A DNA stretch of 44,503 nucleotides, from positions 1 through 44,503 of the forward strand of contig NZ_NPEV01000045.1 of NCBI RefSeq assembly GCF_003258835.1, given 5' to 3'. Of this stretch, positions 28,200 through 44,503 are shown in pieces. The position numbers were made by a program, and so were the translations under genes. The notes under the pieces are model-generated. The model ran no database searches. It was not told the DNA's origin and saw nothing but the letters and a program-made list of their open reading frames with translations. Each line of letters starts with the position of its first letter. Within the stretch, counting starts at the first letter, position 1. Source of the stretch: Rhodobium orientis. Its GTDB lineage: Bacteria > Pseudomonadota > Alphaproteobacteria > Rhizobiales > Rhodobiaceae.

Positions 28200-28543
28200 G
28201 AAAGTGCCTCCGGGTTTGCCGGCGCGCTGCCGACCTCGGGTCAAGCTAGCACGGCGATCGGGCGCGATGCGAGGAGGCCGCCGCCGGCTTTTTTGTCGCC
28301 GCATTTTTGCCCAGCAAAACCACTACAGTAACTAAACATTTTATTTTAGTGCAGTGCAGCATCGCGGGCGGAAACATCTGGAAAGAAACATATATTCGGC
28401 GACGAAAACGATTACCTATCGGCCGCCGGAAGTCAATCCGGTCCTTGATTTTAGCTGCAGACTAAAGTTTAGTTACTAAAATTGTGGGTCCTGTCCGGCG
28501 CCGGTTCCGCGGTCGGCGGGAAGTGGAGAAGGAACGCGTTTCA
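28200..28543. promoter_or_regulatory. Divergent regulatory region with five ACTAAA/TTTAGT half-sites
   Basis: 344 bp, AT-rich in its middle. Half-sites: ACTAAA at 28331..28336, TTTAGT at 28345..28350, ACTAAA at 28461..28466, TTTAGT at 28468..28473, ACTAAA at 28475..28480. The last three form overlapping palindromes (ACTAAA-G-TTTAGT and TTTAGT-T-ACTAAA). The 11-mers AGTAACTAAAC (28327..28337) and GTTTAGTTACT (28467..28477) are exact reverse complements 129 bp apart, which would suit DNA looping by one regulator controlling the dha operon and the Gfo/Idh-isomerase pair. Confidence 0.65.
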
Positions 28544-29149
28544 ATGGACGACGCAACGCTCATCAGGGCTCTTGTTACGGCCTGTTGCGCCACGATCGAG
28601 GAGCACGCCGGCGAGTTGACGAAGCTCGACCAGGCAATCGGCGACGGCGACCACGGCCTCAACATGAGCCGCGGCTTCAAGGCGATCGCGGCGGAAACCG
28701 ACGCGCTTGCCGCCATGACCCTAGGCGATGCCCTGAAGAAGGCCGGCATGACGCTGGTCATGAAGGTCGGCGGCGCCTCCGGCCCGCTCTACGGCTCGCT
28801 GCTGATGGATATGGGCAAGTCCGCGAGCACCGCTCCGGCCAACGAGGCCGAAGTCGCGGAAATGTTCCGCGCCGGCATCGATGCTGTCAAAAAACGCGGC
28901 AAGTCCGACGTCGGCGCCAAGACCATGCTCGACGTGCTGGTCCCGGTCGCGGAAACGGTCTCGGAGGGCGGCGATCTCGAGGCCGTCCGCGCCCGCACCG
29001 ACGAAGCGCTTGAGGCGACCCGCGACATGCTGGCCATCAAGGGGCGGGCGGCCTTCCTCGGCGAGCGCTCGCTCGGTCATATCGACCCGGGCGCGCGGTC
29101 CTCGGCGCTCCTCATCCACGCCGTCTGCAACGTTCTGGAGGCCTCATGA
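28544..29149 (+). CDS. dhaL: PTS-dependent dihydroxyacetone kinase, ADP-binding subunit
   Basis: 201 aa. DhaL holds ADP as a permanent cofactor that is rephosphorylated by DhaM and passes phosphate to dihydroxyacetone bound on DhaK. Seen: LDQAIGDGDHGLNMSRG with the three Mg-binding aspartates Asp29, Asp34 and Asp36, GGASGPLYGSLLMDMG, and the C-terminal GHIDPGARSSALL. Start ATG 28544 follows AAGGAA. First gene of a six-gene operon; its stop overlaps dhaM as ATGA. Confidence 0.95.
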   Translation: MDDATLIRALVTACCATIEEHAGELTKLDQAIGDGDHGLNMSRGFKAIAAETDALAAMTLGDALKKAGMTLVMKVGGASGPLYGSLLMDMGKSASTAPANEAEVAEMFRAGIDAVKKRGKSDVGAKTMLDVLVPVAETVSEGGDLEAVRARTDEALEATRDMLAIKGRAAFLGERSLGHIDPGARSSALLIHAVCNVLEAS

Positions 29150-29535
29150 GCGAGACCGTTTCCATTGTCATCGTTTCCCACTCGCCGGAGGTTGCCAGCG
29201 GCGCCGCCGACATGGTCCGCCAGATGGTCGGCGAGGAGGTCCGGGTCGCGGCCTGCGGCGGCAATCCGGAGGGCGGGCTCGGCACCGATGTCGGCAAGAT
29301 CATGGAAGCGATCGAGAGCGTCTGGTCGGACAAGGGCGTCGCCATCCTCGTCGACCTCGGCGGCGCGGAGACCAATTCCGAAATGGCGATCGAGATGATC
29401 GGCGGCGCGCGTGCCGAAAAAATCGCGCTCTGCAACGCGCCGGTCGTGGAAGGTGCGGTGATGGCGGCGACGGAGGCCGCGGGCGGCTCCGACCTTCAAA
29501 CCGTGAAGGCAACCGCGGAGGACTTCCAGTCATGA
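29146..29535 (+). CDS. dhaM: Dihydroxyacetone kinase phosphotransferase subunit, EIIA domain
   Basis: 129 aa, mannose-EIIA-like domain. The phosphorylated residue is His12 in VIVSHSPEVASGA; later GGNPEGGLGTDVGKIM and VDLGGAETNSEMAIEM match the DhaM fold. It rephosphorylates ADP held on DhaL. In E. coli DhaM carries EIIA, HPr and part of Enzyme I in one chain; here only EIIA is present and HPr and Enzyme I follow as separate genes. ATGA overlaps on both sides (29146..29149 and 29532..29535). Confidence 0.93.
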   Translation: MSETVSIVIVSHSPEVASGAADMVRQMVGEEVRVAACGGNPEGGLGTDVGKIMEAIESVWSDKGVAILVDLGGAETNSEMAIEMIGGARAEKIALCNAPVVEGAVMAATEAAGGSDLQTVKATAEDFQS

Positions 29536-29825
29536 GCGAGGCCTGGCAAACGGAGTCCGCGGTCATCCAGGACGCCACCGGCCTGCACGCCCGCCCGGCG
29601 GTGAAGCTCACCAAGCTCGCCAAGCGGTTCGAGGCGCGCGTCGAAATCCGGCCGGAAAGCGCCGAGACCTGGATCAATGCGAAATCCCCCAGCGCCGTGA
29701 TGAAACTGAAGGCGCCGCACCTGGCGCGGCTGGAAATCCGCGCCTCCGGCGGGGATGCTCCGGCAGCGGTCGCGGCGCTTCGCGATCTGATCAACAGGGA
29801 TTTCAATGACAGCGCCGAACGCTGA
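29532..29825 (+). CDS. HPr-like phosphocarrier dedicated to the dihydroxyacetone kinase relay
   Basis: 97 aa. It takes phosphate from Enzyme I and passes it to DhaM. Seen: phosphorylatable His19 in DATGLHARPAVKL, and NAKSPSAVMKLKAP at the site equivalent to the regulatory Ser46 region. Start ATG 29532 overlaps the dhaM stop as ATGA, and its end overlaps the Enzyme I start by 20 bp. Position inside the operon argues for a dedicated carrier rather than the housekeeping nitrogen-PTS HPr. Confidence 0.93.
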   Translation: MSEAWQTESAVIQDATGLHARPAVKLTKLAKRFEARVEIRPESAETWINAKSPSAVMKLKAPHLARLEIRASGGDAPAAVAALRDLINRDFNDSAER

Positions 29826-31431
29826 ACGGAGATTTGAAGGCCGATCCGCCGCACCCGGCTTTGCCCTCGGGCCGGCCGTCCACCTTGGAGTCGGGCCGGT
29901 GGAGACCGCAGGTGAGGCGGCAAGCCCGGAGGAGGAGCGGGAACGGTTCGACGCGGCGCTCGCGGCATCCGCCGAACAGCTCAACATTCTTGCCGACGCC
30001 GCAGATGTGCTCGGCGCGGAGATCCTGGAATTCCAGCTCGCCCTCATCGAGGACGACGAGCTGCTCGACCCGGTGCGCGAGGCGATTGCCGGGGGCCGTG
30101 CGGCGGCCACCTCCTGGCGCGCGCGCTTGGATGAGGAAATCGCCGACTACCGGTCCGCCGAAGACGACTACATGGCCACACGGGCCTCGGACCTCTCCGA
30201 CCTTCGCGACCGGGTGCTCGCCAACATGAATGGCGGCTTTACGGCCGCCGACCTTCCCGACGGCGCCGTCATCGTCGCCGACGACCTCACCCCGTCGACC
30301 TTCCTCAGCCTCGACTGGCAGCGGCTTTCCGGCGCCGTGCTCTTCGGCGGCTCGTCGACCAGCCATGCCTCCATCCTTGCCCGCTCGCGCGGCGTGCCGA
30401 TGGTCGTCGATCTCGGTGCTGCCGAGATCGGCGAGGGCGATCTCCTCGCCGTCGATGCGGCGGCAGGATCGGTGATCGCGGAGCCGGGTTCCGACACCCT
30501 TGCCGCCTTCACGGCGCAGCGGGAGGCCGACGAGCGCCTCAACAAGAGGGCCGCCGAGCTCCTGAAGGCGCCGGCAAGGACCGGCGATGGCGTGCCGATA
30601 AAAGTGCTCGTCAACGTCAACGAGATTTCCGAGATCGATGACCTGTCGCCGGAGATCTGCGACGGCATCGGGCTCACCCGCACCGAGTTCCTGTTTTCCG
30701 GCGGCGCGCCGGAGGAGGCGCGGCAGTACGAGGTCTACCGGCGGCTCCTCGCCTGGGCCGAGGGGCGTCCGGTCACCATCCGTACGCTCGACGCCGGCGG
30801 CGACAAGCCCCTTGCCGGCATCACGGTCGATGGCGAAAGCAATCCGTTCCTCGGTGTGCGCGGCGTCCGCCTGTCCCTGAAGCGCCGCGAGATTTTCATC
30901 ACCCAGCTAAGGGCGCTCGCCCGGGCAGCAAGCCTCGGGCCGCTCAAGGTGATGGTGCCGATGGTGAGCGTTCCGGAGGAAATGGTCGCCGTCCGCCAGC
31001 TCCTGCGCCAGGCCGTCGCCGCGCTCCATGCGGAAGGCGTCACCGCCCGCGAGCCGGCGCTCGGCATGATGGTCGAGGTGCCTGCAGCGGCATTGATGGC
31101 GGACCGCTTTGCCGCGGACTTCTATTCCATCGGCTCCAACGACCTCATCCAGTACACCATGGCGGTCGCCCGCGACGTCGCCGGCCTCGGCCATCTGACC
31201 GCGGGGGACAACCCGGCGGTGATGGAGCTGATCCGGCGCACCGTTGCCGCCGGACGGGCGCGCGGCGTCGAGGTCAGCCTCTGCGGCGACATGGCCTCAC
31301 GGCCGGAATATGCGGCGCCGCTCCTTGCCGCCGGGCTGACGACCTTTTCCGTGGCGCCGGCCGCCGTCGGGCGGATCAAGCTGGCGATTTCCGAGGCACG
31401 GGCGCTGGGCGCGGAGGCAAGGGCCGGATGA
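29806..31431 (+). CDS. PTS Enzyme I-like phosphoenolpyruvate--protein phosphotransferase
   Basis: 541 aa, near full length for Enzyme I. It autophosphorylates from PEP and donates to HPr. Seen: N-terminal swivelling domain with active His187 in FGGSSTSHASILARSRGV; PEP-binding barrel with TEFLFSGGAP, IRTLDAGGDKPLAG, GVRGVRLSLKR, GSNDLIQYTMAVARD, and the catalytic Cys in SLCGDMASRPEY. All catalytic features are present, so unlike the truncated EI part of E. coli DhaM this should be a working Enzyme I. Overlaps HPr by 20 bp and the next gene as ATGA. Confidence 0.95.
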   Translation: MTAPNAERRFEGRSAAPGFALGPAVHLGVGPVETAGEAASPEEERERFDAALAASAEQLNILADAADVLGAEILEFQLALIEDDELLDPVREAIAGGRAAATSWRARLDEEIADYRSAEDDYMATRASDLSDLRDRVLANMNGGFTAADLPDGAVIVADDLTPSTFLSLDWQRLSGAVLFGGSSTSHASILARSRGVPMVVDLGAAEIGEGDLLAVDAAAGSVIAEPGSDTLAAFTAQREADERLNKRAAELLKAPARTGDGVPIKVLVNVNEISEIDDLSPEICDGIGLTRTEFLFSGGAPEEARQYEVYRRLLAWAEGRPVTIRTLDAGGDKPLAGITVDGESNPFLGVRGVRLSLKRREIFITQLRALARAASLGPLKVMVPMVSVPEEMVAVRQLLRQAVAALHAEGVTAREPALGMMVEVPAAALMADRFAADFYSIGSNDLIQYTMAVARDVAGLGHLTAGDNPAVMELIRRTVAAGRARGVEVSLCGDMASRPEYAAPLLAAGLTTFSVAPAAVGRIKLAISEARALGAEARAG

Positions 31432-31841
31432 CGAAGGATCCGCTGGTCGCCTACAAGACCTTCCTCAGCGCCGCCGTCGAAAAGCGGCCGTCGGGAACGC
31501 GGCGCAAGCTTGCCATGGCCTTCGGCACCCATCCGAGCTTCATTTCCCAGATCACCAATCCCGCTCTCAAGGTACCGCTGCCGGCCCAGCATATCCCGAC
31601 GCTCTTCCAGGTCTGCCATTTCACGCCGGAGGAGCAGGACGCCTTTCTGGATCTCTACAAACGGGCCCATCCGGCCCAGGCCGCCTCCATCGAGGAACTC
31701 GCCGAGAACGAAAAGAACGTCGTCAAGATCCTGCTGCCGCAATTCGACGATCCGGCCGTCAAGGCCGACGTCATCCAGGCCATCAGGGATTTTGCCGAAA
31801 ACGTGATCCGTCTCGCCGACGGCATCGCCAAACGCAAATAA
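31428..31841 (+). CDS. Small HTH protein inside the dha operon
   Basis: 137 aa. Residues about 22-43 (GTRRKLAMAFGTHPSFISQI) look like a lambda-repressor-type helix-turn-helix; the remainder is helical and acidic, with PEEQDAFLDLYKRAHP (66-81) and a C-terminal helix ending AKRK. Not a member of a family I can name. Start ATG overlaps the Enzyme I stop as ATGA and its stop is 11 bp before dhaK, so it is tightly embedded. A role as operon regulator, perhaps responding to the relay or binding the ACTAAA sites at 28327..28480, is inference. Confidence 0.8.
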   Translation: MTKDPLVAYKTFLSAAVEKRPSGTRRKLAMAFGTHPSFISQITNPALKVPLPAQHIPTLFQVCHFTPEEQDAFLDLYKRAHPAQAASIEELAENEKNVVKILLPQFDDPAVKADVIQAIRDFAENVIRLADGIAKRK

Positions 31842-31852
31842 GGGTGTTCAAA

Positions 31853-32845
31853 ATGAAGAAGCTGATCAACGCTGTCGACGACGTGCTGACGGAAAGCCTC
31901 GCCGGCTTCGGGCGCGCCCATGCCAATCTCGTCGAGGTCTCCACCGATCCCAAGCTGGTGACCCGCAAGGGCGGCGGCAAGAAGGGCAAGGTGGCGCTGA
32001 TCTCCGGCGGCGGCTCCGGCCACGAGCCGATGCATGCCGGCTTCGTCGGCATGGGCATGCTCGATGCGGCCTGCCCGGGCGAGGTGTCTACATCGCCAAC
32101 ACCGGACCAGATGCTGGCCGCGGCTGAAGCCGTCGACGGCGGCGCCGGCGTCCTGTGGATCGTCAAGAACTATGCGGGCGACGTCATGAACTTCGAGATG
32201 GCCGGCGAGATGTATGACGGCCCGACGGAAACGGTGCTGACCAATGACGACGTCGCGGTGGAGAGTTCGCTCCACTCGCAGGGCCGTCGCGGCGTTGCCG
32301 CCACCGTCATCGTGGAGAAGATCGTCGGTGCGGCGGCCGAGCGAGGCGACGACCTCGCGGCCTGCAAGGCCCTTGGCGACCGGGTCAACGAGGCCTCGGG
32401 CACCATGGGCATCGCGCTCACCTCCTGCACGGTGCCGGCGGCCGGAACCCCGACCTTTACGATCGGCGAGGGCGAGATGGAACTCGGCGTCGGCATCCAT
32501 GGCGAGCCGGGCCGCAAGCGCGTCGAGCTGATGAAAGCCGATGAGATCGCAGAAGCGCTGATCGCCGCCATCTGCGAGTCCATTGCGCCCTCCGGCGACG
32601 ATGACCTTCTCTTGCTCGTCAACGGCATGGGCGGCACGCCGCTGCTGGAGCTCTATCTCCTCTACAATTCGGCGCTGCAGGTGGTCGAGGAGAGGGGCCT
32701 GAAGATCGCCCGCTCGCTAGTCGGCAACTACTGCACCTCGCTGGAAATGGCCGGCGCCTCGATCACGCTGACCAAGCTCGACAAGGAGACGATGGAGCTC
32801 TGGGACGCCCCGGTGCACACGGCGGCCCTGCGCTGGAAGGCTTGA
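31853..32845 (+). CDS. dhaK: Dihydroxyacetone kinase, substrate-binding subunit
   Basis: 330 aa. DhaK binds dihydroxyacetone covalently as a hemiaminal on a histidine. Seen: MKKLINAVDDVL as in other DhaK proteins, ISGGGSGHEPMHAGFVG with His57, KNYAGDVMNF with Asp110, and GIHGEPGRKR with the substrate-binding His216. Start ATG 31853 (AGGG upstream); GTG 31844 would add three residues. Last gene of the operon, an unusual order because dhaK is normally first. Confidence 0.95.
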   Translation: MKKLINAVDDVLTESLAGFGRAHANLVEVSTDPKLVTRKGGGKKGKVALISGGGSGHEPMHAGFVGMGMLDAACPGEVSTSPTPDQMLAAAEAVDGGAGVLWIVKNYAGDVMNFEMAGEMYDGPTETVLTNDDVAVESSLHSQGRRGVAATVIVEKIVGAAAERGDDLAACKALGDRVNEASGTMGIALTSCTVPAAGTPTFTIGEGEMELGVGIHGEPGRKRVELMKADEIAEALIAAICESIAPSGDDDLLLLVNGMGGTPLLELYLLYNSALQVVEERGLKIARSLVGNYCTSLEMAGASITLTKLDKETMELWDAPVHTAALRWKA

Positions 32846-35310: not shown

Positions 35311-36183
35311 CTAGCTGAATTTGCGGAACAGCCGGGTCTTGTCGAAGAGGTCTTCCAGGTCGGCCATCCGCTCCCGTGTGGTCTGCCAGGTAGCGGCCTG
35401 GATTTCCGCGATGATGGTCTCCACGACCACCAGCAGCGAGGCGGCGGAGTCCCAGGCCGACGGCACCTCGATGCGGCAATTGAAACGGTGCGCCACGTGC
35501 TTGCCGACGGGCGAGCCCCACTGGTCGGTGATCAGGATCATCTCCGCGCCCTTTTCCCCGGCCAACTCGGCGAGTTTCAAGAGCTCGTTCTCGTAGCGCC
35601 GGATGTCGAAGAGCAGGAGCACGTCGCCGTCCTCCATGTCCATCAGATGGTGCGGCCAGACATTCGCGCCGGTCGGCATCAGGGTGACGTCCGGGCGCAG
35701 CATCTGCAGGTGCCGGAACAGATAGTCGGCAAGGGTGTAGGTGATGCGCCCGCCGGCGATGTAAATCGACCGCCCGCGGTCGGCGAGCAGCGCGCAGCTC
35801 CGGTCGAAGTCTGCGGCATCGATGTGCAAAAGCGTCTGGCGCAGGTTCTGAACGACAGTCTCGGCAAAGCGGTTGAGGATGTGCTCGTCCGGCGCGTTCT
35901 CGGCCCAGCGGTCGTGCTTGGCGATCGGATTGGAGATCGTCGCCTCAAGCTCCCGGCGCAGCGCCTCCTGGAATTCCGGAAAGCCCGAAAAGCCGATTTT
36001 CTTGACCATGCGGGCCACCGTCGGCGTCGAAACGCCGGCCTTTTGCGCCACCGCCGTGATGCTGGCGAGCCCGGAAACCGGCCAGTTTTCCAGCAGCGAA
36101 TTGGCGAGCTGGCGCTCCGCCCGGGTCAGGTCGTCGAAGCGCTGCTGCAACAGGACGTCGACCGTCTTTTCCGCACCCGCCAT
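35311..36183 (-). CDS. RpiR/MurR-family transcriptional regulator
   Basis: 290 aa. N-terminal HTH_6 domain: LTRAERQLANSLLENWP, ITAVAQKAGVSTPTVARMVKKIG (about 40-63, helix-turn-helix), FPEFQEALRREL. C-terminal SIS domain (about 120-270) with IYIAGGRITYTLADYLF, DMEDGDVLLLFDIRRYENE and ILITDQWGSPVG, which binds phosphorylated or similar small metabolites. Start ATG 36183 has GGGAGGG upstream. It is divergent from the amidohydrolase-TRAP-ligase series and very likely controls it. SIS-type sensing suggests a pathway intermediate rather than the imported compound as effector. Confidence 0.92.
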   Translation of the reverse strand: MAGAEKTVDVLLQQRFDDLTRAERQLANSLLENWPVSGLASITAVAQKAGVSTPTVARMVKKIGFSGFPEFQEALRRELEATISNPIAKHDRWAENAPDEHILNRFAETVVQNLRQTLLHIDAADFDRSCALLADRGRSIYIAGGRITYTLADYLFRHLQMLRPDVTLMPTGANVWPHHLMDMEDGDVLLLFDIRRYENELLKLAELAGEKGAEMILITDQWGSPVGKHVAHRFNCRIEVPSAWDSAASLLVVVETIIAEIQAATWQTTRERMADLEDLFDKTRLFRKFS

Positions 36184-36278
36184 CCCCGTTTCCCTCCCAA
36201 CCCGTTGATTTGTCGCGGCTCTGATACTCTGATGCCCGAAGCGTTTCCAGCGATCCGGCCGCGCGTTTGGAAAAGATA

Positions 36279-36314
36279 TTGACAGCTCATTTCAACCTGT
36301 TCAAATATTTTCAA
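36279..36314 (+). promoter_or_regulatory. Promoter with three phased TTCAA repeats
   Basis: TTGACA (36279..36284), 18 bp, then AAATAT (36303..36308) is a good sigma-70-like promoter for the amidohydrolase-TRAP unit. TTCAA occurs at 36291, 36300 and 36310, spaced 9 and 10 bp, about one helical turn each, covering the spacer and -10 element. This would suit an RpiR dimer or multimer acting as repressor. Confidence 0.6.
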
Positions 36315-36330
36315 ACAGCGGGGACAGGGT

Positions 36331-37140
36331 GTGGCTGAGCAGCTCAACGCAGCGTTATTGTCGGAAGGGGATGGTCCCGCCGTGCGGGTCCGCAATCCCG
36401 GCGCCAGCAGCCCGATCCTCCTCGCCTGCGATCATGCCAGCAACCGCATCCCGGCCTCGCTCGGAACCCTCGGACTGGAGGCCGATGCGCTCGTCAGCCA
36501 TGTCGCCTGGGATCCGGGAGCCGAAGCCGTCGCCATCGCGATGGCCGAAATCCTCGATGCGACGGTCGTCTCGTCGGCGTTTTCGCGGCTTGTCTTCGAC
36601 GTCAACCGGCCACCCGGCGCGGAAGAGGCGGTCCGCCTCGTCAGCGAGACCGTCGAAATCCCCGGCAACCGCGATCTCGATCCGGCGGCATTAGCGGCCC
36701 GCGCCGATGCGCTCTATCATCCGTTCCACGATGCCATCGACGGCATCCTCGAAGAGCGCATCGCCGCCGGCACCGAGCCGGTGCTCGTCACCGTCCATTC
36801 CTTCACGCCGGTCTATTTCGGGCACACGCGGCCGGTGGAGCTCGGCATCGTCTTTGACGCCGATGCGCGGCTCGCCGATGCGGTCTTGAGGCTGGCGCCG
36901 GCGCACACGCGGCTCGCGATCCGCGCCAACGAGCCCTACGGGCCGAAGGACGGCGTCACCCACACGCTGGCGCGCCATGCCCTGCCGCGGCAGATCCCGA
37001 ATGTGATGATCGAGATCCGCAACGACCTGATCCGCACTGCCAGCGACCAGTCGCGCATTGCCGGGCAGTTGGCGGCCCTCGTCGGCGCCGGGGTTGAGCT
37101 TCTGACCTCCACCTCAAGGACAAGAGCGGGGCGCGCCTGA
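36331..37140 (+). CDS. N-formylglutamate amidohydrolase-family protein
   Basis: 269 aa FGase-family hydrolase. Seen: LLACDHASNRIPASLG (32-47) with the Asp-His pair, HVAWDPGAEAVA, FSRLVFDVNRPPG, VHSFTPVYFG, and MIEIRNDLIR near the C-terminus, which supply metal and substrate contacts. Known members release glutamate from N-formylglutamate in histidine breakdown, but no hut gene is near. In this setting, with a glutamine-synthetase-like ligase, it may instead hydrolyse a gamma-glutamyl amide. Start GTG 36331. Its stop is 2 bp before the TRAP small subunit. Confidence 0.88.
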   Translation: MAEQLNAALLSEGDGPAVRVRNPGASSPILLACDHASNRIPASLGTLGLEADALVSHVAWDPGAEAVAIAMAEILDATVVSSAFSRLVFDVNRPPGAEEAVRLVSETVEIPGNRDLDPAALAARADALYHPFHDAIDGILEERIAAGTEPVLVTVHSFTPVYFGHTRPVELGIVFDADARLADAVLRLAPAHTRLAIRANEPYGPKDGVTHTLARHALPRQIPNVMIEIRNDLIRTASDQSRIAGQLAALVGAGVELLTSTSRTRAGRA

Positions 37141-37142
37141 CC

Positions 37143-37649
37143 ATGCCGCAAGCCCTGAAGACCTTCGTTCGGGCGATCGACGCCTTCAATCGGGGCCTCG
37201 GCCGCATCACGATGTATCTGATATTCGTGATGATGGGGATCCTTCTGTGGTCGTCCTTTTCCAAGACCTTCCTGCTGCCGTCCCTTTGGACGCTGGAAAT
37301 GGCGCAGTTCACGATGACTGCCTACTACCTGATCGGCGGCCCCTACGCGCTGCAGGCGGGCGCCCATGTGCGCATGGACCTTTTCTACGGCAACTGGTCG
37401 GACCGCCAGAAGGCGTTCGCCGACGCACTGACCGTCGCCTGCCTGTTCTTCTATCTCGGCGTGCTGCTCTATGGCGGCATCGAGAGCACGATCTACGCGT
37501 TGAAATACGCCGAGCGCAGCTACTCGGCCTGGCGGCCCTACATGTCGCCGATCAAGATCATCATGTGCATCGGCATCTTTCTGATGCTGCTCCAGTCCCT
37601 CGCGGTCTTCCTCAAGGATATCGCCAAGCTGCGCGGGGAAGAGCTCTGA
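37143..37649 (+). CDS. TRAP transporter small permease (DctQ family)
   Basis: 168 aa with four predicted membrane helices (about 20-40, 56-72, 94-116, 134-154). Seen: LWTLEMAQFTMTAYYLIGGPYALQAGAHVRMDLFY region (the E-x5-Y...G-x2-H-x-R-x-D pattern is the DctQ signature). With DctM it forms the membrane part of a sodium-coupled uptake system. Stop and the dctM start overlap as TGATG. Confidence 0.93.
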   Translation: MPQALKTFVRAIDAFNRGLGRITMYLIFVMMGILLWSSFSKTFLLPSLWTLEMAQFTMTAYYLIGGPYALQAGAHVRMDLFYGNWSDRQKAFADALTVACLFFYLGVLLYGGIESTIYALKYAERSYSAWRPYMSPIKIIMCIGIFLMLLQSLAVFLKDIAKLRGEEL

Positions 37650-38971
37650 TGTCCTACGAGATGCTCGCCCTCATCCTGTTCGCATCGATGATGCTGATGA
37701 TGATGACGGGTCAGCGCGTCTTCGCCGCCATCGGCTTCGTCGCGGTCGCCGCGGCCCTGCCGCTGTGGGGCGTCGGCGGCTCCAACATCGCCTTTTCCGC
37801 AGCGATGAAGCTGATGAAGTGGTACCCGCTGCTGACGCTGCCGCTGTTCATCTTCATGGGCTACGTGCTGTCGGAATCGCGGATCGCCGACGACCTCTAC
37901 AAGATGTTCCACGTCTGGATGGGACCGCTGAATGGCGGTCTCGCCATCGGCACCATCGGCCTGATGGTGCTGATCTCGGCGATGAACGGCCTCTCCGTCG
38001 CCGGCATGGCGATCGGCGCCACCATCGCGCTGCCCGAACTTCTGAAGCGTGGCTACGACAAGCAGATGGTGACCGGCGTCATTCAGGCGGGATCCTCGCT
38101 CGGAATCCTGGTGCCACCATCCGTGGTGCTGGTCCTTTATGCCATGATCGCGCGCCAGCCGGTTGGCCAGCTCTGGCTTGCCGGCGTCGTCCCCGGGCTG
38201 ATGATGGCCGGTCTCTTCGTCCTCTACATCGTCATCCGCTGCTATTTCCAGCCGCAATTGGGGCCGGCACTGCCCGCCGAAGAGCGCGACGTCTCCCGGC
38301 GCGAGAAGCTGCGTCTCCTGAGCGCGGGCCTGCTGCCGCTGGCCATCTTCGGCGCGATGATGGTGCCCTTCATCAACGGCTGGACGAGCCTCGTGGAAAG
38401 CTCGGCCATCGGCGCGCTGACGGCATTCATCGCCGCCGTCCTGAAGCGGCGCATGACCTGGCACGTGTTCCACACCTCCGTGGAAAAGACCCTGTTCGTC
38501 TCCTGCATGTTCATGTGGATCATCCTCGCCGCGCTCGGCTTCGGCGCCGTCTTCGACGGTCTCGGCGCAGTCAAGGCGATCGAGGGCTTCTTCGTCGACC
38601 AGCTTGGCCTCGGCCCGTGGGAAATCCTCATCCTGATGCAGCTTTCCTACCTGATCATGGGCACCTTCCTGGACGACACCGCGATGCTGGTGATCGTCGC
38701 GCCGCTCTATGTGCCGCTGGTCCGGGCGCTCGGCTTCGACCTGATCTGGTACGGCGTCCTCTACACGATCACCTGCCAGATCGCCTATATGACGCCGCCC
38801 TTCGGCTACAATTTGTTCCTGATGCGCGCCATGGCCCCCAAGGAGGTCGGCCTTGGCGACATCTACCGCTCCATCGTCCCGTTCGTGCTCGTCATGCTCG
38901 TCGGTCTCGCGCTCATCACCGCGTTTCCCGAGATCGCGCTGTGGCTGCCGAACTACGTCTACGGGAAGTGA
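37649..38971 (+). CDS. TRAP transporter large permease (DctM family)
   Basis: 440 aa, very hydrophobic, 12-13 helices expected. Seen: LPLFIFMGYVLSES, GGLAIGTIGLMVLISAMNG, GVIQAGSSLGILVPPSVVLVLY (the DctM GxLGxLIPPS-like motif), GTFLDDTAMLVIVAPLYVPL and MTPPFGYNLFLMR. It is the translocation subunit. Start ATG 37649 overlaps the dctQ stop. Confidence 0.95.
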   Translation: MSYEMLALILFASMMLMMMTGQRVFAAIGFVAVAAALPLWGVGGSNIAFSAAMKLMKWYPLLTLPLFIFMGYVLSESRIADDLYKMFHVWMGPLNGGLAIGTIGLMVLISAMNGLSVAGMAIGATIALPELLKRGYDKQMVTGVIQAGSSLGILVPPSVVLVLYAMIARQPVGQLWLAGVVPGLMMAGLFVLYIVIRCYFQPQLGPALPAEERDVSRREKLRLLSAGLLPLAIFGAMMVPFINGWTSLVESSAIGALTAFIAAVLKRRMTWHVFHTSVEKTLFVSCMFMWIILAALGFGAVFDGLGAVKAIEGFFVDQLGLGPWEILILMQLSYLIMGTFLDDTAMLVIVAPLYVPLVRALGFDLIWYGVLYTITCQIAYMTPPFGYNLFLMRAMAPKEVGLGDIYRSIVPFVLVMLVGLALITAFPEIALWLPNYVYGK

Positions 38972-39071
38972 TCCCGTGCCTGTCGGGGCACGACACCGTT
39001 TCGGCCGGGCCTTGCCCTTTGCCGAATGCCACACGGGCCCTACCGGTGGCCAACCAGAAGGAGGAGAACTT

Positions 39072-40115
39072 ATGACGACGAGACGTGATTTCCTGAAGAA
39101 TGCGGGCGTAGCCGGCGCTGTCGGCGCGTCCTCCCTTGCCGCCCCGGCCGTCCTTGCCCAGGCACCGATCAAGTGGCGCCTGCAGACCTATGCCGGCCCG
39201 GCGCTGGCCGAGCATGTGGTCAAGCCGGCGATCGATTCCTTCAACAAGATCGCCGAAGGCCAGATGGAGATCGAGCTTTACACCTCGGACTCCCTGGTGC
39301 CGACGGGCGAATTGTTCCGCGCCATGCAGTCCGGCACCATCGACATGGTCCAGTCGGACGACGACTCCATGGCCTCACCGACGGAAGTCACCGTCTTCGG
39401 CGGCTACTTCCCGTTCGCCTCGCGCTATTCCCTCGACGTGCCGGTGCTGTTCAACAAGTACGGCCTCGCCGAGATCTGGGCGTCCGAATACGAGAAGGTC
39501 GGCGTCAAGCACCTGTCGGCCGGTTCGTGGGATCCCTGCCACTTCGCCACCAAGGAGCCGATCAACAGCCTTGAGGACCTGAAGGGCAAGCGCGTCTTCA
39601 CCTTCCCGACGGCCGGCCGGTTCCTGGCTCAGTTCGGCGTCGTGCCGGTCACCCTGCCGTGGGAGGACATCGAGGTCGCGGTGCAGACCGGCGAGCTCGA
39701 CGGCATCGCCTGGTCGGGCATCACCGAGGACTACACGGTCGGCTGGGCGGACGTCACCAACTACTTCCTGACCAACAACATCTCCGGCGCCTGGATCGGC
39801 TCCTTCTATGCCAACATGGACCGCTACAACGAGCTTCCCGACAATCTGAAGGAACTCCTGAAGCTGGCCATGGACTCCTCGCACTACTATCGCCAGTGGT
39901 GGTACTGGGGCGGCGAGGCCTCGCTGCGCGTCGACGGCACCAAGATGAAGCTGACCTCGATCCCCGACAAGGAATGGGATCAGGTCGAGGAGGCGGCCCA
40001 CAAGTTCTGGGACGAGATCGCCGCGGAGTCGGAGATCAAGGCCAAGGTCGTGGAGATCTTCAAGAAGTACAACGCCGACATGGCCAAGGCCGGCCGGCCG
40101 TATCGCTACACCTAG
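39072..40115 (+). CDS. TRAP transporter substrate-binding protein (DctP family, Tat signal)
   Basis: 347 aa. Twin-arginine signal TTRRDFLKNAG at 2-12, hydrophobic stretch to about 29 (cleavage near VLAQA). Body: IKWRLQTYAGPALAEHV, TGELFRAMQSGTIDMVQ, LEDLKGKRVFTFPTAGRFL (DctP ligand-Arg region), TGELDGIAWSGITEDYTVGW. Tat export implies folding in the cytoplasm. The ligand cannot be read from sequence; an organic acid or zwitterion is usual. It lies 100 bp after dctM, separated by a small hairpin (38975..38992, CGTGCC/GGCACG) that may allow higher expression of this subunit. Start ATG 39072 with AGGAGGAGAA upstream. Confidence 0.94.
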   Translation: MTTRRDFLKNAGVAGAVGASSLAAPAVLAQAPIKWRLQTYAGPALAEHVVKPAIDSFNKIAEGQMEIELYTSDSLVPTGELFRAMQSGTIDMVQSDDDSMASPTEVTVFGGYFPFASRYSLDVPVLFNKYGLAEIWASEYEKVGVKHLSAGSWDPCHFATKEPINSLEDLKGKRVFTFPTAGRFLAQFGVVPVTLPWEDIEVAVQTGELDGIAWSGITEDYTVGWADVTNYFLTNNISGAWIGSFYANMDRYNELPDNLKELLKLAMDSSHYYRQWWYWGGEASLRVDGTKMKLTSIPDKEWDQVEEAAHKFWDEIAAESEIKAKVVEIFKKYNADMAKAGRPYRYT

Positions 40116-40202
40116 AGGCCGCCAGCACATTGACGATGACGCCCTTCCCGCCCGCCGCGGGGAGGGCACTTCTCTTCCAGACCCTTTTTAAAGAGACCAG
40201 AA

Positions 40203-41570
40203 ATGTCCGGTAACCTGACACTTGACGAGCTCCAAGCCGCGGTCGCCAATGGCGAGATCGACACGGTGATCATGGCCCAGATCGACATGCAGGGCCGGCT
40301 GATGGGCAAGCGCTTCCACGCCCAGAACTTCCTCGACGCGGGCGTGGAGGAGACCCACTCCTGCAACTATCTCCTCACCGTCGACATGGAGATGGAGCCG
40401 GTGCCGGGCTACAAGTCGGCAAGCTGGGCCGCCGGCTACGGCGACTACACGATGAAGCCGGACCTCTCGACCCTGCGCCGCATCCCCTGGCTCGACGGCA
40501 CGGCCCTGGTGCTCTGCGATATCCTCGACCACCACACAAACGAGCCCGTTCCGGTCTCGCCGCGGGCGATCCTGAAGCGCCAGATCGCGCGGCTCGATGC
40601 CATGGGCCTTGTCCCGATGATGGCCTCGGAGCTGGAATTCTTCCTGTTCCGCGAGACCTTCGAGGAGGCCGTCGCCAAGGGCTATCGCGATCTCACGCTG
40701 ATCAGTCCCTACAACGAGGACTACCACCTCTTCCAGACCACCAAGGAAGAGGACGTCATGCGGGCGATCCGCAACGGCCTCTTCGGCGCCGGCATCCCGG
40801 TGGAGAACTCCAAGGGCGAGGCCTGGGCCGGCCAGGAAGAGATCAACGTGCGCTACGCCGAGGCGCTGACCAACGCCGACTACCACGTCATCACCAAGAA
40901 CGGCTGCAAAGAGATCGCCTGGAAGAACGGCCGCGCCGTCACCTTCATGGCCAAATGGGACTACCTTGCTGCCGGCTCCTCCTGCCACATCCACCAGTCG
41001 CTTTGGACCAGGGACGGCAGCCCGGCCTTCTTCGACAAGGACGCCCAGTACGGCATGTCTGAGACCATGCGCCACTACCTTGCCGGCCTCCTGAAATACG
41101 CCGGCGACTTCACCTTCTTCCTCGCCCCGAACATCAACTCCTACAAGCGCTTCCAGGCCGGCACCTTCGCCCCGACCAAGGCGGTCTGGTCCCAGGACAA
41201 CCGCACCGCCGGCTACCGCATCTGCGGCGACGGCACCAAGAACGTCCGGGTCGAATGCCGGGTCGGCGGCGCCGACCTCAACCCCTATCTCGCCTTCGCC
41301 GCGCTGCTCGCCGCCGGCATGGCCGGCATCGAGGAAAAGCTCGACCTGGAAGAGGAGTTCCGGGGCGACGCCTATGCCGCACGGCGGGCCCGCGAAATTC
41401 CCGGTACCCTTCGAGACGCGGCAACGGCCCTGAAGCGGTCAAAGATGCTGCGCGCGGCCCTCGGCGACGACGTCGTCGACCACTACGTCCATGCGGCGGA
41501 GTGGGAGCAGTTCGAATACGACCGCCGGGTCACCGACTGGGAAATTTTTAGAGGCTTCGAGCGGGCATAA
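40203..41570 (+). CDS. Glutamine-synthetase-family ligase (probable gamma-glutamyl-amine/amide synthetase)
   Basis: 455 aa, GS fold: beta-grasp N-domain (DTVIMAQIDMQGRLMGKR), catalytic domain with ASELEFFLF (metal Glu), AGQEEINVRYAEAL, GSSCHIHQSLW, NINSYKRFQAGTFAP, and RVECRVGGADLNPYLAFAA. It has the short PuuA/IpuC/GlnT-type layout and lacks the adenylylation loop of housekeeping GlnA. Such enzymes join glutamate to an amine with ATP. Placed directly before an aldehyde dehydrogenase and an iron alcohol dehydrogenase, so it probably gamma-glutamylates an imported amine or amino alcohol. Stop is 21 bp before the next start. Confidence 0.9.
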   Translation: MSGNLTLDELQAAVANGEIDTVIMAQIDMQGRLMGKRFHAQNFLDAGVEETHSCNYLLTVDMEMEPVPGYKSASWAAGYGDYTMKPDLSTLRRIPWLDGTALVLCDILDHHTNEPVPVSPRAILKRQIARLDAMGLVPMMASELEFFLFRETFEEAVAKGYRDLTLISPYNEDYHLFQTTKEEDVMRAIRNGLFGAGIPVENSKGEAWAGQEEINVRYAEALTNADYHVITKNGCKEIAWKNGRAVTFMAKWDYLAAGSSCHIHQSLWTRDGSPAFFDKDAQYGMSETMRHYLAGLLKYAGDFTFFLAPNINSYKRFQAGTFAPTKAVWSQDNRTAGYRICGDGTKNVRVECRVGGADLNPYLAFAALLAAGMAGIEEKLDLEEEFRGDAYAARRAREIPGTLRDAATALKRSKMLRAALGDDVVDHYVHAAEWEQFEYDRRVTDWEIFRGFERA

Positions 41571-41591
41571 GGCCCCGACAGAGAGTACGAC

Positions 41592-42974
41592 ATGACGACA
41601 CTGACCTGTATCTCTCCGATCATCGGCGAGCCCTTCGCCACGCGTGAGACCCATCCCGTTGGCGAGGTCGAGGCGCTCCTCGACAAGGCGCGTACGGCCC
41701 AGGAGGCCTGGGCGAGGCGCTCCCTTGCCGACCGCCGCGACATCGTCATGACGGCCGTCACGGCCCTCAAGGTCATGAACGACGACGTGGTCGTGGAACT
41801 TGCCCATATGATGGGCCGGCCGGTGCGCTATGGCGGCGAGATCGGCGGCGTCAAAGAGCGCGCCGACCATATGGCGAGAATCGCCGAAAAGACGCTCGCC
41901 GACGACGTCATCGAGGACGACAAGGCCTTCAAGCGCTATATCGCCCGCGAGCCGCTCGGCGTCGTCTTTGTCGTCGCACCCTGGAACTATCCGTATCTGA
42001 CGGCCGTCAACAGCATCGTCCCGGCGCTGATCGCTGGCAATGCCGTGATGTTGAAGCATGCGACGCAGACGCTGCTCGCCGGCGAGCGCTTCGGCGCCGC
42101 CTTCCAGGAGGCCGGTCTGCCCGAGGGGCTCTTCACCAACCTCTTCCTCAGCCACGACGACACCAGCGCGCTGATCGCCGCCGGAAGCTTCGATTTCATC
42201 AACTTCACAGGCTCCGTCAACGGCGGCCGGACCATGGAAAAGGCCGCTGCCGGCACCTTCACGCCGATCGGACTGGAGCTCGGCGGCAAGGATCCCGGCT
42301 ATGTCCGCGCCGACGCCGACCTCGACGCCGCGGTCGACACCCTCATCGACGGCGCGATGTTCAATTCCGGCCAGTGCTGCTGCGGCATTGAGCGCATCTA
42401 TGTCCACGAAAGCCTGTTCGACGCCTTCGTGGAAAAGGCCAAGGCCCTGGTCGAGACCTATGTCCTCGGCGACCCGCTGGACGACAAGACCACCATCGGC
42501 CCGATGGCCAATCTGCGCTTTGCCAATGTCGTCCGCGAGCAGATCGCCGAGGCCTTGGAGAAGGGCGCAAAGGCCCTGATCGACCCCAAGCTCTTTCCGG
42601 CCGATACCGGCGAGACCGCCTATCTGGCGCCGCAGATCCTCGTCGACGTCGACCACTCCATGAAGGTCATGCGCGAGGAAAGCTTCGGCCCCGTCGTCGG
42701 CATCATGAAGGTCTCGTCCGACGCCGAGGCCATTGACCTGATGAACGATTCCGATTTTGGCCTGACGGCATCCCTCTGGACGAAGGACGTGAAGGCCGCC
42801 GAAGAGATCGGCCGCCAGATAGAGACCGGCACCGTCTTCATGAACCGCTGCGACTATCTCGACCCGGCGCTCTGCTGGACGGGCTGCAAGGAGACCGGCC
42901 GCGGCGCGACGCTCTCCTCCCTCGGCTATCTGAGCCTCACCCGGCCGAAATCCTATCACCTCAAGAAGGCCTGA
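41592..42974 (+). CDS. NAD(P)-dependent aldehyde dehydrogenase
   Basis: 460 aa. Seen: VAPWNYPYLTAVNSIVPAL (cofactor site), FTGSVNGGRTMEKAAA, LELGGKDPGYV with the general-base Glu, and catalytic Cys263 in SGQCCCG (262-264 are all Cys, which is unusual), then ESFGPVVGI and FMNRCDYLDP. It oxidises an aldehyde to the acid. In context it would act on an aldehyde made by the adjacent iron alcohol dehydrogenase, possibly still gamma-glutamylated. 5 bp before the next start. Confidence 0.94.
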   Translation: MTTLTCISPIIGEPFATRETHPVGEVEALLDKARTAQEAWARRSLADRRDIVMTAVTALKVMNDDVVVELAHMMGRPVRYGGEIGGVKERADHMARIAEKTLADDVIEDDKAFKRYIAREPLGVVFVVAPWNYPYLTAVNSIVPALIAGNAVMLKHATQTLLAGERFGAAFQEAGLPEGLFTNLFLSHDDTSALIAAGSFDFINFTGSVNGGRTMEKAAAGTFTPIGLELGGKDPGYVRADADLDAAVDTLIDGAMFNSGQCCCGIERIYVHESLFDAFVEKAKALVETYVLGDPLDDKTTIGPMANLRFANVVREQIAEALEKGAKALIDPKLFPADTGETAYLAPQILVDVDHSMKVMREESFGPVVGIMKVSSDAEAIDLMNDSDFGLTASLWTKDVKAAEEIGRQIETGTVFMNRCDYLDPALCWTGCKETGRGATLSSLGYLSLTRPKSYHLKKA

Positions 42975-42979
42975 CCTCC

Positions 42980-44125
42980 ATGACTCCCACTGCCAACTGG
43001 AGCTATCCGACGACGATCCGCTTCGGCGCCGGACGGATCGCCGAACTCGCCGATGCCTGCAGGGCCACCGGCATCGCAAAACCGCTGCTCGTCACCGACA
43101 AGGGCCTTGCCTCCCTGCCGATCACCAAGGGCGCGCTGGACCTCATGGAAAAAGCCGGCCTCGGCCGCGGGCTCTTTTCCGACGTCGACCCGAACCCGAA
43201 CGAGAAGAACCTTGCGGCCGGCATTGCCGCCTTCAAGGCCGGCGGCCATGACGGCGTGATCGCCTTTGGCGGCGGCTCGGGCCTCGACCTCGGCAAGCTC
43301 GTCGCCCTGATGGCCGGCCAGACCGTTTCGGTCTGGGACCTGGAAGACATCGGCGACTGGTGGACCAGAGCCGACGCATCCGCCATCGCCCCGATCATCG
43401 CCGTTCCGACGACGGCGGGCACCGGCTCGGAAGTCGGCCGGGCAGGGGTGCTGACGAACTCGGAAACGGGCGTGAAAAAAATCATCTTCCACCCGAAGGT
43501 GCTGCCCGCGATCGTCATCTGCGACCCGGAACTGACCGTCGGCATGCCGCCCGCGATCACCGCCGGCACCGGCATGGACGCCTTCGCCCATTGCCTGGAG
43601 GCCTATTCCTCGCCCCACTACCACCCGATGTCGCAGGGCATCGCGCTGGAGGGCATGCGGCTCGTCAAGGAAAACCTCCTAAAGGTGTTTCGCGACGGCA
43701 GCGACCTTGAAGCCCGCGCCCACATGATGAGCGCGGCGATGATGGGCGCGACCGCCTTTCAGAAGGGTCTTGGTGCGGTCCACGCCGTCTCGCACCCGAT
43801 CGGCGCCGTCCACCACACCCACCACGGCACCACCAACGCCCTGTTCCTGCAGCCGGTGCTGACGTTCAACCGGCCGGCAATTGAAGAAAAAATCGACCGC
43901 CTTGCCGCCTATCTCGGCATCGCGGGCGGCTTCGAGGGCTTCTATGCCTTTGTGGGCGACCTCAACGCCGCCCTCGGCATCCCGACCTCACTCGCCGGCC
44001 TCGGCGTCGAAAACCCCGACCTCGACCGGTTGACGGCGGAAGCGCTGAAAGACCCCAGCGTCGGCGGCAACCCCGTCGCCATGACGCCGGAGAACACGCG
44101 GGCGTTGTTGGAATCGGTGCTGTAG
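42980..44125 (+). CDS. Iron-containing alcohol dehydrogenase (group III)
   Basis: 381 aa. N-terminal dinucleotide fold with FGGGSGLDLGKLVAL (97-111); metal ligands Asp200 and His204 in GTGMDAFAHCLEAY, His268 and His282 in GAVHAVSHPIG and HHTHHGTTNA. These match the FucO/DhaT set. It oxidises a primary alcohol to an aldehyde with NAD+, or the reverse. Last gene of the series; 170 bp of non-coding repeats and the right IS end follow. Confidence 0.95.
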   Translation: MTPTANWSYPTTIRFGAGRIAELADACRATGIAKPLLVTDKGLASLPITKGALDLMEKAGLGRGLFSDVDPNPNEKNLAAGIAAFKAGGHDGVIAFGGGSGLDLGKLVALMAGQTVSVWDLEDIGDWWTRADASAIAPIIAVPTTAGTGSEVGRAGVLTNSETGVKKIIFHPKVLPAIVICDPELTVGMPPAITAGTGMDAFAHCLEAYSSPHYHPMSQGIALEGMRLVKENLLKVFRDGSDLEARAHMMSAAMMGATAFQKGLGAVHAVSHPIGAVHHTHHGTTNALFLQPVLTFNRPAIEEKIDRLAAYLGIAGGFEGFYAFVGDLNAALGIPTSLAGLGVENPDLDRLTAEALKDPSVGGNPVAMTPENTRALLESVL

Positions 44126-44294: not shown

Positions 44295-44503
44295 TGTGCG
44301 AGTTCAGATATTCGCTGATGGGATTGCGGAAAGGAGCGACCCATGCGCGACAACAGCTATGACCGGACGATTGAACGGAACTATGTTCAGAAGTGGCGTT
44401 TCCTGATCAGGGAGTATGAGGAGGTGAAGGCCGGCCGGTCGTCGGCCTTTGCCACGGTCGGGGCCTTTTACCGCCACCACGGCACCTGCTCGCAGACCTT
44501 CCG
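44295..44503 (+). mobile_element. IS element terminus with 5' part of transposase gene (right, truncated by window edge)
   Basis: Inverted copy of 1..209 with one mismatch (44414). The IS tip begins TGTGCGAGTTCAGATATTCG at 44295. Both copies read outwards and both stop at exactly the same internal base at the window edges, which is what an assembly gives when it cannot pass a repeated element. Confidence 0.85.
44343..44503 (+). CDS. Transposase N-terminus (partial)
   Basis: ATG 44343 follows AAAGGAG. 53 complete codons are visible before the window ends, with the same protein sequence as the left copy; the single base difference is GAG against GAA at codon 24. Contains a helical basic region and FYRHHGTCSQTF. 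No catalytic domain within the window; family uncertain. Confidence 0.65.
   Translation, partial: MRDNSYDRTIERNYVQKWRFLIREYEEVKAGRSSAFATVGAFYRHHGTCSQTF

Follow-up and report, generated by a model that had tools for sequence, protein, structure and literature searches.

The DNA analysed here (the window) is a stretch of 44,503 nt from Rhodobium orientis, contig NZ_NPEV01000045.1, and we studied the eight genes that lie at its positions 35311-44125 (Table 1). All eight are intact open reading frames in the place and order given by a preliminary description of the sequence, and Pfam confirms each of them: an RpiR-type regulator (SIS/HTH_6), an enzyme of the N-formylglutamate amidohydrolase (FGase) family, the DctQ, DctM and DctP parts of a tripartite ATP-independent periplasmic (TRAP) transporter, a glutamine synthetase (GS)-like ligase (Gln-synt_C), an aldehyde dehydrogenase (ALDH; Aldedh) and an iron-containing alcohol dehydrogenase (Fe-ADH). 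The RpiR gene is indeed divergent, being the sole minus-strand gene of the eight, and the spacing of the set is operon-like, with several genes nearly abutting and an overlap of one base between DctQ and DctM. The ligase had been called short, but with 455 amino acids it is not notably so.

Table 1. Positions of the genes and control elements in the window, and of one further ligase at another locus
Feature	Position	Strand	Basis or remark
RpiR/SIS-family regulator, divergent from operon	35311..36183	-	Pfam HTH_6 + SIS
FGase-family hydrolase, predicted gamma-glutamylglycine amidohydrolase (GGAH), GTG start	36331..37140	+	PF05013, 143.9 bits
TRAP small permease (EtoV)	37143..37649	+	PF04290 DctQ
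TRAP large permease (EtoW)	37649..38971	+	PF06808 DctM
TRAP solute-binding protein (EtoX), predicted ethanolamine receptor, Tat-type leader	39072..40115	+	Csal_0678 match
GS-superfamily ligase, predicted ethanolamine gamma-glutamylase (ETAGA)	40203..41570	+	11zs, 5dm3 (Csal_0679) nearest
Aldehyde dehydrogenase, predicted maker of gamma-glutamylglycine	41592..42974	+	PF00171
Iron-containing alcohol dehydrogenase, predicted gamma-glutamylethanolamide dehydrogenase	42980..44125	+	PF00465
Predicted -35 element TTGACA	36279..36284	+	conserved in 56/72 stretches
Predicted RpiR operator, imperfect palindrome TGTTCAAATATTTTCA	36298..36313	.	19 bp after TTGACA start
Second GS-superfamily ligase type	L074:107-1579	-	also in L164-L173

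The cluster is very probably the EtoVWX gamma-glutamylation operon for ethanolamine, that is, a known pathway at a new locus, of which it is a well-conserved, ordinary member. For Phaeobacter sp. MED193, the Fig. 5 legend of PMC10132767 (2023) lists RpiR, a gamma-glutamylglycine amidohydrolase, EtoV, EtoW and EtoX, followed by an ethanolamine gamma-glutamylase and the aldehyde and alcohol dehydrogenases, with rising locus tags, and the window holds the same eight genes in this one order and with equal assigned roles. Passages of the same paper report that MED193 EtoX binds ethanolamine with a Kd of 7.9 uM, that five proteins of the operon increase on phosphoethanolamine and that EtoX also increases without phosphate. 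Ethanolamine binding and induction were shown by others for orthologues; they belong to a different host, MED193, whereas the window is known from its sequence. Because a cluster with identical gene order and roles has been published for MED193, the pathway is not undescribed. The amino-alcohol chemistry of the preliminary description, with TRAP import, gamma-glutamylation, alcohol and aldehyde oxidation and removal of glutamate by an FGase-family enzyme, matches the published scheme, but its view of the pathway, and of the combination of a TRAP importer with an FGase-family hydrolase, as uncharacterised has to be given up, since these passages give gene order, roles, induction and EtoX binding. 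They also refer to Vetting et al. for C. salexigens and A. tumefaciens. Passages of an earlier paper (PMC6529630, 2019), which describes Streptomyces GlnA4, already propose a formylglutamate-amidohydrolase-family enzyme for gamma-glutamylglycine and treat the pathway of C. salexigens as an in silico prediction, with Gerlt 2016 and a FASEB abstract of 2015 as references. The pathway is published, with less direct evidence for its enzymes in these passages than the gene names suggest.

The receptor ties the cluster to ethanolamine. Its best solved structure is 4uab (4xf5 has the same sequence) with an E value of 9.8e-180, followed by 4pet at 4.5e-19. A Foldseek search with an EtoX model of mediocre quality (pLDDT 65.8), which served only for reaching PDB titles, again returned 4uab/4xf5 at about 80% identity, under the title of TRAP receptor Csal_0678 from Chromohalobacter salexigens; at these values EtoX is an orthologue of Csal_0678. 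That receptor was crystallised with ethanolamine (4UAB), with Glu220 holding both the amine and the hydroxyl (passages of PMC12410723), and lacks the arginine that gives most TRAP receptors their carboxylate specificity (passages of PMC4646407). The arginine is likewise absent from the window EtoX, in which Phe176 aligns opposite the arginine of 4pet. We aligned 18 EtoX proteins, the window's together with 17 of the other 37 from the order: 16 carry Phe and 2 carry Tyr at position 176, and all 18 keep Glu219, by alignment the probable counterpart of Csal Glu220.

The ligase has 11zs and 5dm3 (Csal_0679) as its nearest PDB entries, and an E value of 1.9e-191 to 5dm3, with 53-56% identity to Csal_0679 in Foldseek alignments, assigns it to the Csal_0679 type. 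Its scores miss the cut-offs of type I GS (TIGR00653, 251 vs 429 bits), of gamma-glutamylputrescine synthetase, PuuA (NF045547, 214.9 vs 650 bits), and of type III GS. Alignment with the separate GlnA of the same genome, which has both the DGSS-motif Asp and the flap Glu, revealed that both are absent from the window ligase; we take these two residues to be the ammonium-binding residues of type I GS. The place of the flap Glu is occupied by Phe322, which is invariant in all 15 aligned ligases, the window's included. This residue pattern argues that the enzyme is built for amines rather than for ammonia. The nearest structure, 11zs, is a 2026 PDB entry titled glutamine synthetase of Brucella melitensis and may be misnamed.

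The FGase-like protein scores 22.6 bits against the HutG model TIGR02017 (cut-off 278.75), which places it outside HutG. Among solved structures it comes closest to 2ODF, which is Atu2144 of Agrobacterium, and the three further FGase-family genes of the genome sit on other contigs. The ALDH reached the cut-off of none of 25 listed NCBIfam families (of 44), and the Fe-ADH that of none of 14. HutG, true glutamine synthetase, PuuA and the ethanolamine ammonia-lyase (Eut) pathway were each considered as identities and rejected: scores lie under the cut-offs, the presumed ammonium-site residues are absent, and EutB (PF06751) was not found in the genome of R. orientis.

Put together, these assignments suggest the following route. 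EtoX would take ethanolamine in the periplasm and EtoVW would carry it inward, where the ligase would join it to glutamate at the expense of ATP, giving gamma-glutamylethanolamide. The Fe-ADH would then turn the alcohol group into an aldehyde, which the ALDH would oxidise further to gamma-glutamylglycine, and from this product the FGase-family enzyme would release glutamate and glycine; this hydrolysis would free glutamate, which would therefore be recycled. The divergent RpiR protein is probably the repressor of the operon and may act at a palindrome in its promoter. Ethanolamine, one of the building blocks of cell membranes, is commonly set free when membrane lipids are broken down, and such a route would use it without an ammonia-lyase.

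Conservation of the neighbourhood, which the preliminary description had named as a check, was found both within and beyond the order. Of 55 named loci among the matches listed, 33 hold all eight genes with order and orientation unchanged, as do 17 of the 37 other etoX-bearing genomes of the order, and the RpiR gene is on the opposite strand in each of these complete loci. Kept this often, the arrangement goes beyond a chance grouping. The named loci are the best 80 among the matches listed, 55 of them with enough flank, and therefore lean to close relatives; the order loci were taken from 37 of the 38 genomes with etoX, the R. orientis genome being left out, and several of the incomplete ones are cut by contig ends. 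Over both sets, which may overlap, 53 of 117 loci hold all eight genes, again among the matches listed. The complete set is present, labelled with generic names, on plasmid 1 of Paracoccus denitrificans PD1222 and in Ruegeria sp. B32. Names being generic or misleading even in PD1222, recognition of the cluster would correct annotations.

The survey of the order covered 101 genomes, R. orientis and 100 relatives (G-numbers below), and its p values (Fisher) ignore kinship. An etoX orthologue is present in 38 of them (at least 60% identity; the next full-length match is below 30%), the ligase in 49 (E value of 1e-120 or better) and EutB in 21. We observed a clear co-occurrence of etoX and ligase, the latter being found in 32 of the 38 etoX genomes vs 17 of the 63 others (p 1.7e-8), and a tendency of ligase and EutB to exclude each other, with EutB in 3 of 49 genomes with ligase vs 18 of 52 without (p 4.5e-4). 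An EtoVWX-type TRAP importer lies beside lyase genes in 2 of the 117 loci among the matches listed: in Vibrio hannami (L157) beside EutB and EutC, both by Pfam (L157:11121-13405), and in L064 beside EutB by Pfam and an EutC-like gene by tblastn only (L064:6550-8711). We count this as independent support for ethanolamine.

Around the usual ligase the importer varies. Seven clusters with this ligase and no adjoining TRAP genes were fetched (L174-L180). L176 encodes an ethanolamine-permease-like protein of the amino-acid-permease (APC) type (359 bits) and L175 and L180 hold APC relatives below cut-off; in L174, L177, L178 and L179 no importer was identified, without any search aimed at one. That importers vary between TRAP and APC is an addition of the present analysis.

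The ligase varies as well. In G048 the gene that follows etoX is a different GS-like one, with about 32% identity to the window ligase. This second type occurs in 8 of the 101 genomes of the order, 5 without etoX and 3 with it, and these three (G008, G048, G094) are among the six etoX genomes in which the usual ligase is missing; it is also present in the genomes of L094, L129 and L105, the last as a partial match. Its neighbours resemble those of the usual enzyme: in L164-L167 it adjoins, or lies within a few kb of, ALDH and ADH relatives, and in L169-L172 it lies near RpiR relatives and a permease, the latter recognised by APC scan in L169-L171 and by resemblance in L172. An FGase accompanies it in L169-L171; ALDH genes were recognised in three of these loci (L169, L170, L172) and an ADH gene in one (L170). 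Around the second-type ligase of L168 and of the short contig L173 no neighbours of the RpiR, FGase, ALDH, ADH or permease type were recognised. There is about an even chance that the pathway is a mix-and-match module, in which RpiR, FGase, ALDH and ADH tend to be kept and the importer (TRAP EtoVWX or APC) and the ligase are exchanged, the second GS type serving as an ethanolamine gamma-glutamylase in lineages without the usual one. This exchange and the predicted operator described below are concrete, testable additions to the known pathway.

For etoX loci with no ligase nearby a different function was first suspected, and these loci were followed in six order genomes and nine named genomes. 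Of the six, three carry the second GS type, as given above, two (G077, G099) carry EutB, and in G058 (83% complete) neither was found. Among the named loci, the usual ligase of L135 and L144 lies at another place of the genome and L157 has EutB instead. Usual ligase, second type and EutB were all not found for L099, and neither usual ligase nor EutB for L140 and L146, in which the second type was not searched for.

Several points weigh against the ethanolamine operon. Every enzymatic step and the regulation are inferred here, and since ALDH and ADH stay below every curated cut-off, their substrates rest on context. In 22 of the 55 named loci among the matches listed, the fetched flank did not yield the full set of eight genes, and 6 of the 38 etoX genomes have no ligase orthologue. 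The association of etoX with EutB is not significant (4 of 38 vs 17 of 63 genomes, p 0.075, in the 101 genomes), and of the four order genomes with both (G059, G064, G077, G099) only G064 has them adjacent. The L176 permease falls under the TIGR00908 cut-off of 382 bits. The receptor, too, may accept more than ethanolamine: the ligand of 4xf5, which the printed title leaves out, is presumably 2-amino-1-propanol, and small amino alcohols other than ethanolamine may be used.

This last point leads to an alternative that keeps the pathway and changes its natural substrate to a related small amino alcohol, for example 2-amino-1-propanol, which would yield gamma-glutamylalanine and then alanine. 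The chemistry would work here too, and the second solved Csal_0678 entry, 4xf5, with its presumed ligand, speaks for it; the same TRAP type beside eutBC in two loci speaks against it, an argument that is weakened as EutBC can accept aminopropanol too. The binding of ethanolamine by MED193 EtoX and the induction by phosphoethanolamine, as published in passages of PMC10132767, also oppose this substrate, and we consider it unlikely.

An ordinary glutamine synthetase with HutG, in an operon for nitrogen or histidine, is what the database names (glutamine synthetase family protein, N-formylglutamate amidohydrolase) would imply, but the HutG and GlnA scores of the two proteins, the separate GlnA with its Asp and Glu, and a receptor closest to an ethanolamine receptor make it hardly credible. 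A polyamine or alkylamine pathway of PuuA, IpuC or GmaS type shares the ligase superfamily and could appeal to the NF045547 match of 215 bits; this score is far under its cut-off, the receptor again points to ethanolamine, and an alcohol dehydrogenase is needed only for an amine that bears a hydroxyl, so that such a pathway has very little probability.

Read as an ethanolamine operon, the cluster can be set beside other systems. C. salexigens Csal_0678/Csal_0679 (4UAB, 4XF5, 5DM3) provide the closest solved receptor and a close ligase, in a host that is gammaproteobacterial. The Eut pathway shares the use of ethanolamine with the window and adjoins EtoVWX-type TRAP genes in L157 and L064; it differs as an ammonia-lyase route, whose lyase chemistry yields acetaldehyde, and in that its EutB is absent from the R. 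orientis genome. The GlnA4 cluster of Streptomyces coelicolor, compared by description in passages of PMC6529630, shares the chemistry, with a gamma-glutamylethanolamide synthetase, dehydrogenases and a proposed gamma-glutamylglycine hydrolase, but has a short-chain dehydrogenase where the window has the Fe-ADH, either a permease or no importer rather than TRAP, and EpuRI as regulator.

The control region was compared over 72 mutually related stretches between RpiR and FGase, from the window and from 71 of the 117 loci among the matches listed; control shuffles preserved base composition only. TTGACA occurs in 56 of the 72 stretches (shuffle mean 2.7). The strict palindrome TGWA-N8-TWCA was found in 57, against a mean of 0.8 and a maximum of 3 in 50 shuffles; this motif was spotted by viewing the sequences and was therefore chosen on the same data as tested. 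Six alternative spacings were found in 0-1 of the 72. The commonest distance from the start of TTGACA to that of the palindrome is 19 bp (22 times). The window sequence, TGTTCAAATATTTTCA, misses the strict consensus and fits only the looser TGW-N10-WCA, which is found in 70 of the 72 stretches (shuffle mean 11.2). Simple GAAA/TTTC palindromes were also considered and were present in few stretches only. The TGWA-N8-TWCA palindrome is the likely RpiR operator, and a repressor site over the promoter would fit the arrangement.

Seven loci (L040, L061, L063, L064, L065, L067, L068) form a second EtoX clade, 59-64% identical to the window EtoX, with changes at positions 98 (Asp to Ala), 156 (Cys to Leu) and 178 (Phe to Val) and with Glu219 unchanged; its ligand range may differ. 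Beside the etoX of this clade, L061:12301-16406 encodes an FAD oxidoreductase (DAO + BFD) and, judged by eye, resemblances to a second oxidoreductase and a glycerol kinase, and neither ligase nor EutB was found in this stretch. From their FAD-oxidoreductase neighbours L061 and L064 were guessed to be glycerol loci, which may hold for L061; Pfam gives DAO and Fer2_BFD with weaker matches, and L064 also holds EutB.

Upstream of the operon, at 28484-32845 of the window, lies what by eye resembles a dihydroxyacetone kinase set of DhaL/PTS/DhaK type. The contig ends about 380 bp past the operon, inside an open frame (44343-44503) that by eye resembles the start of a transposase.

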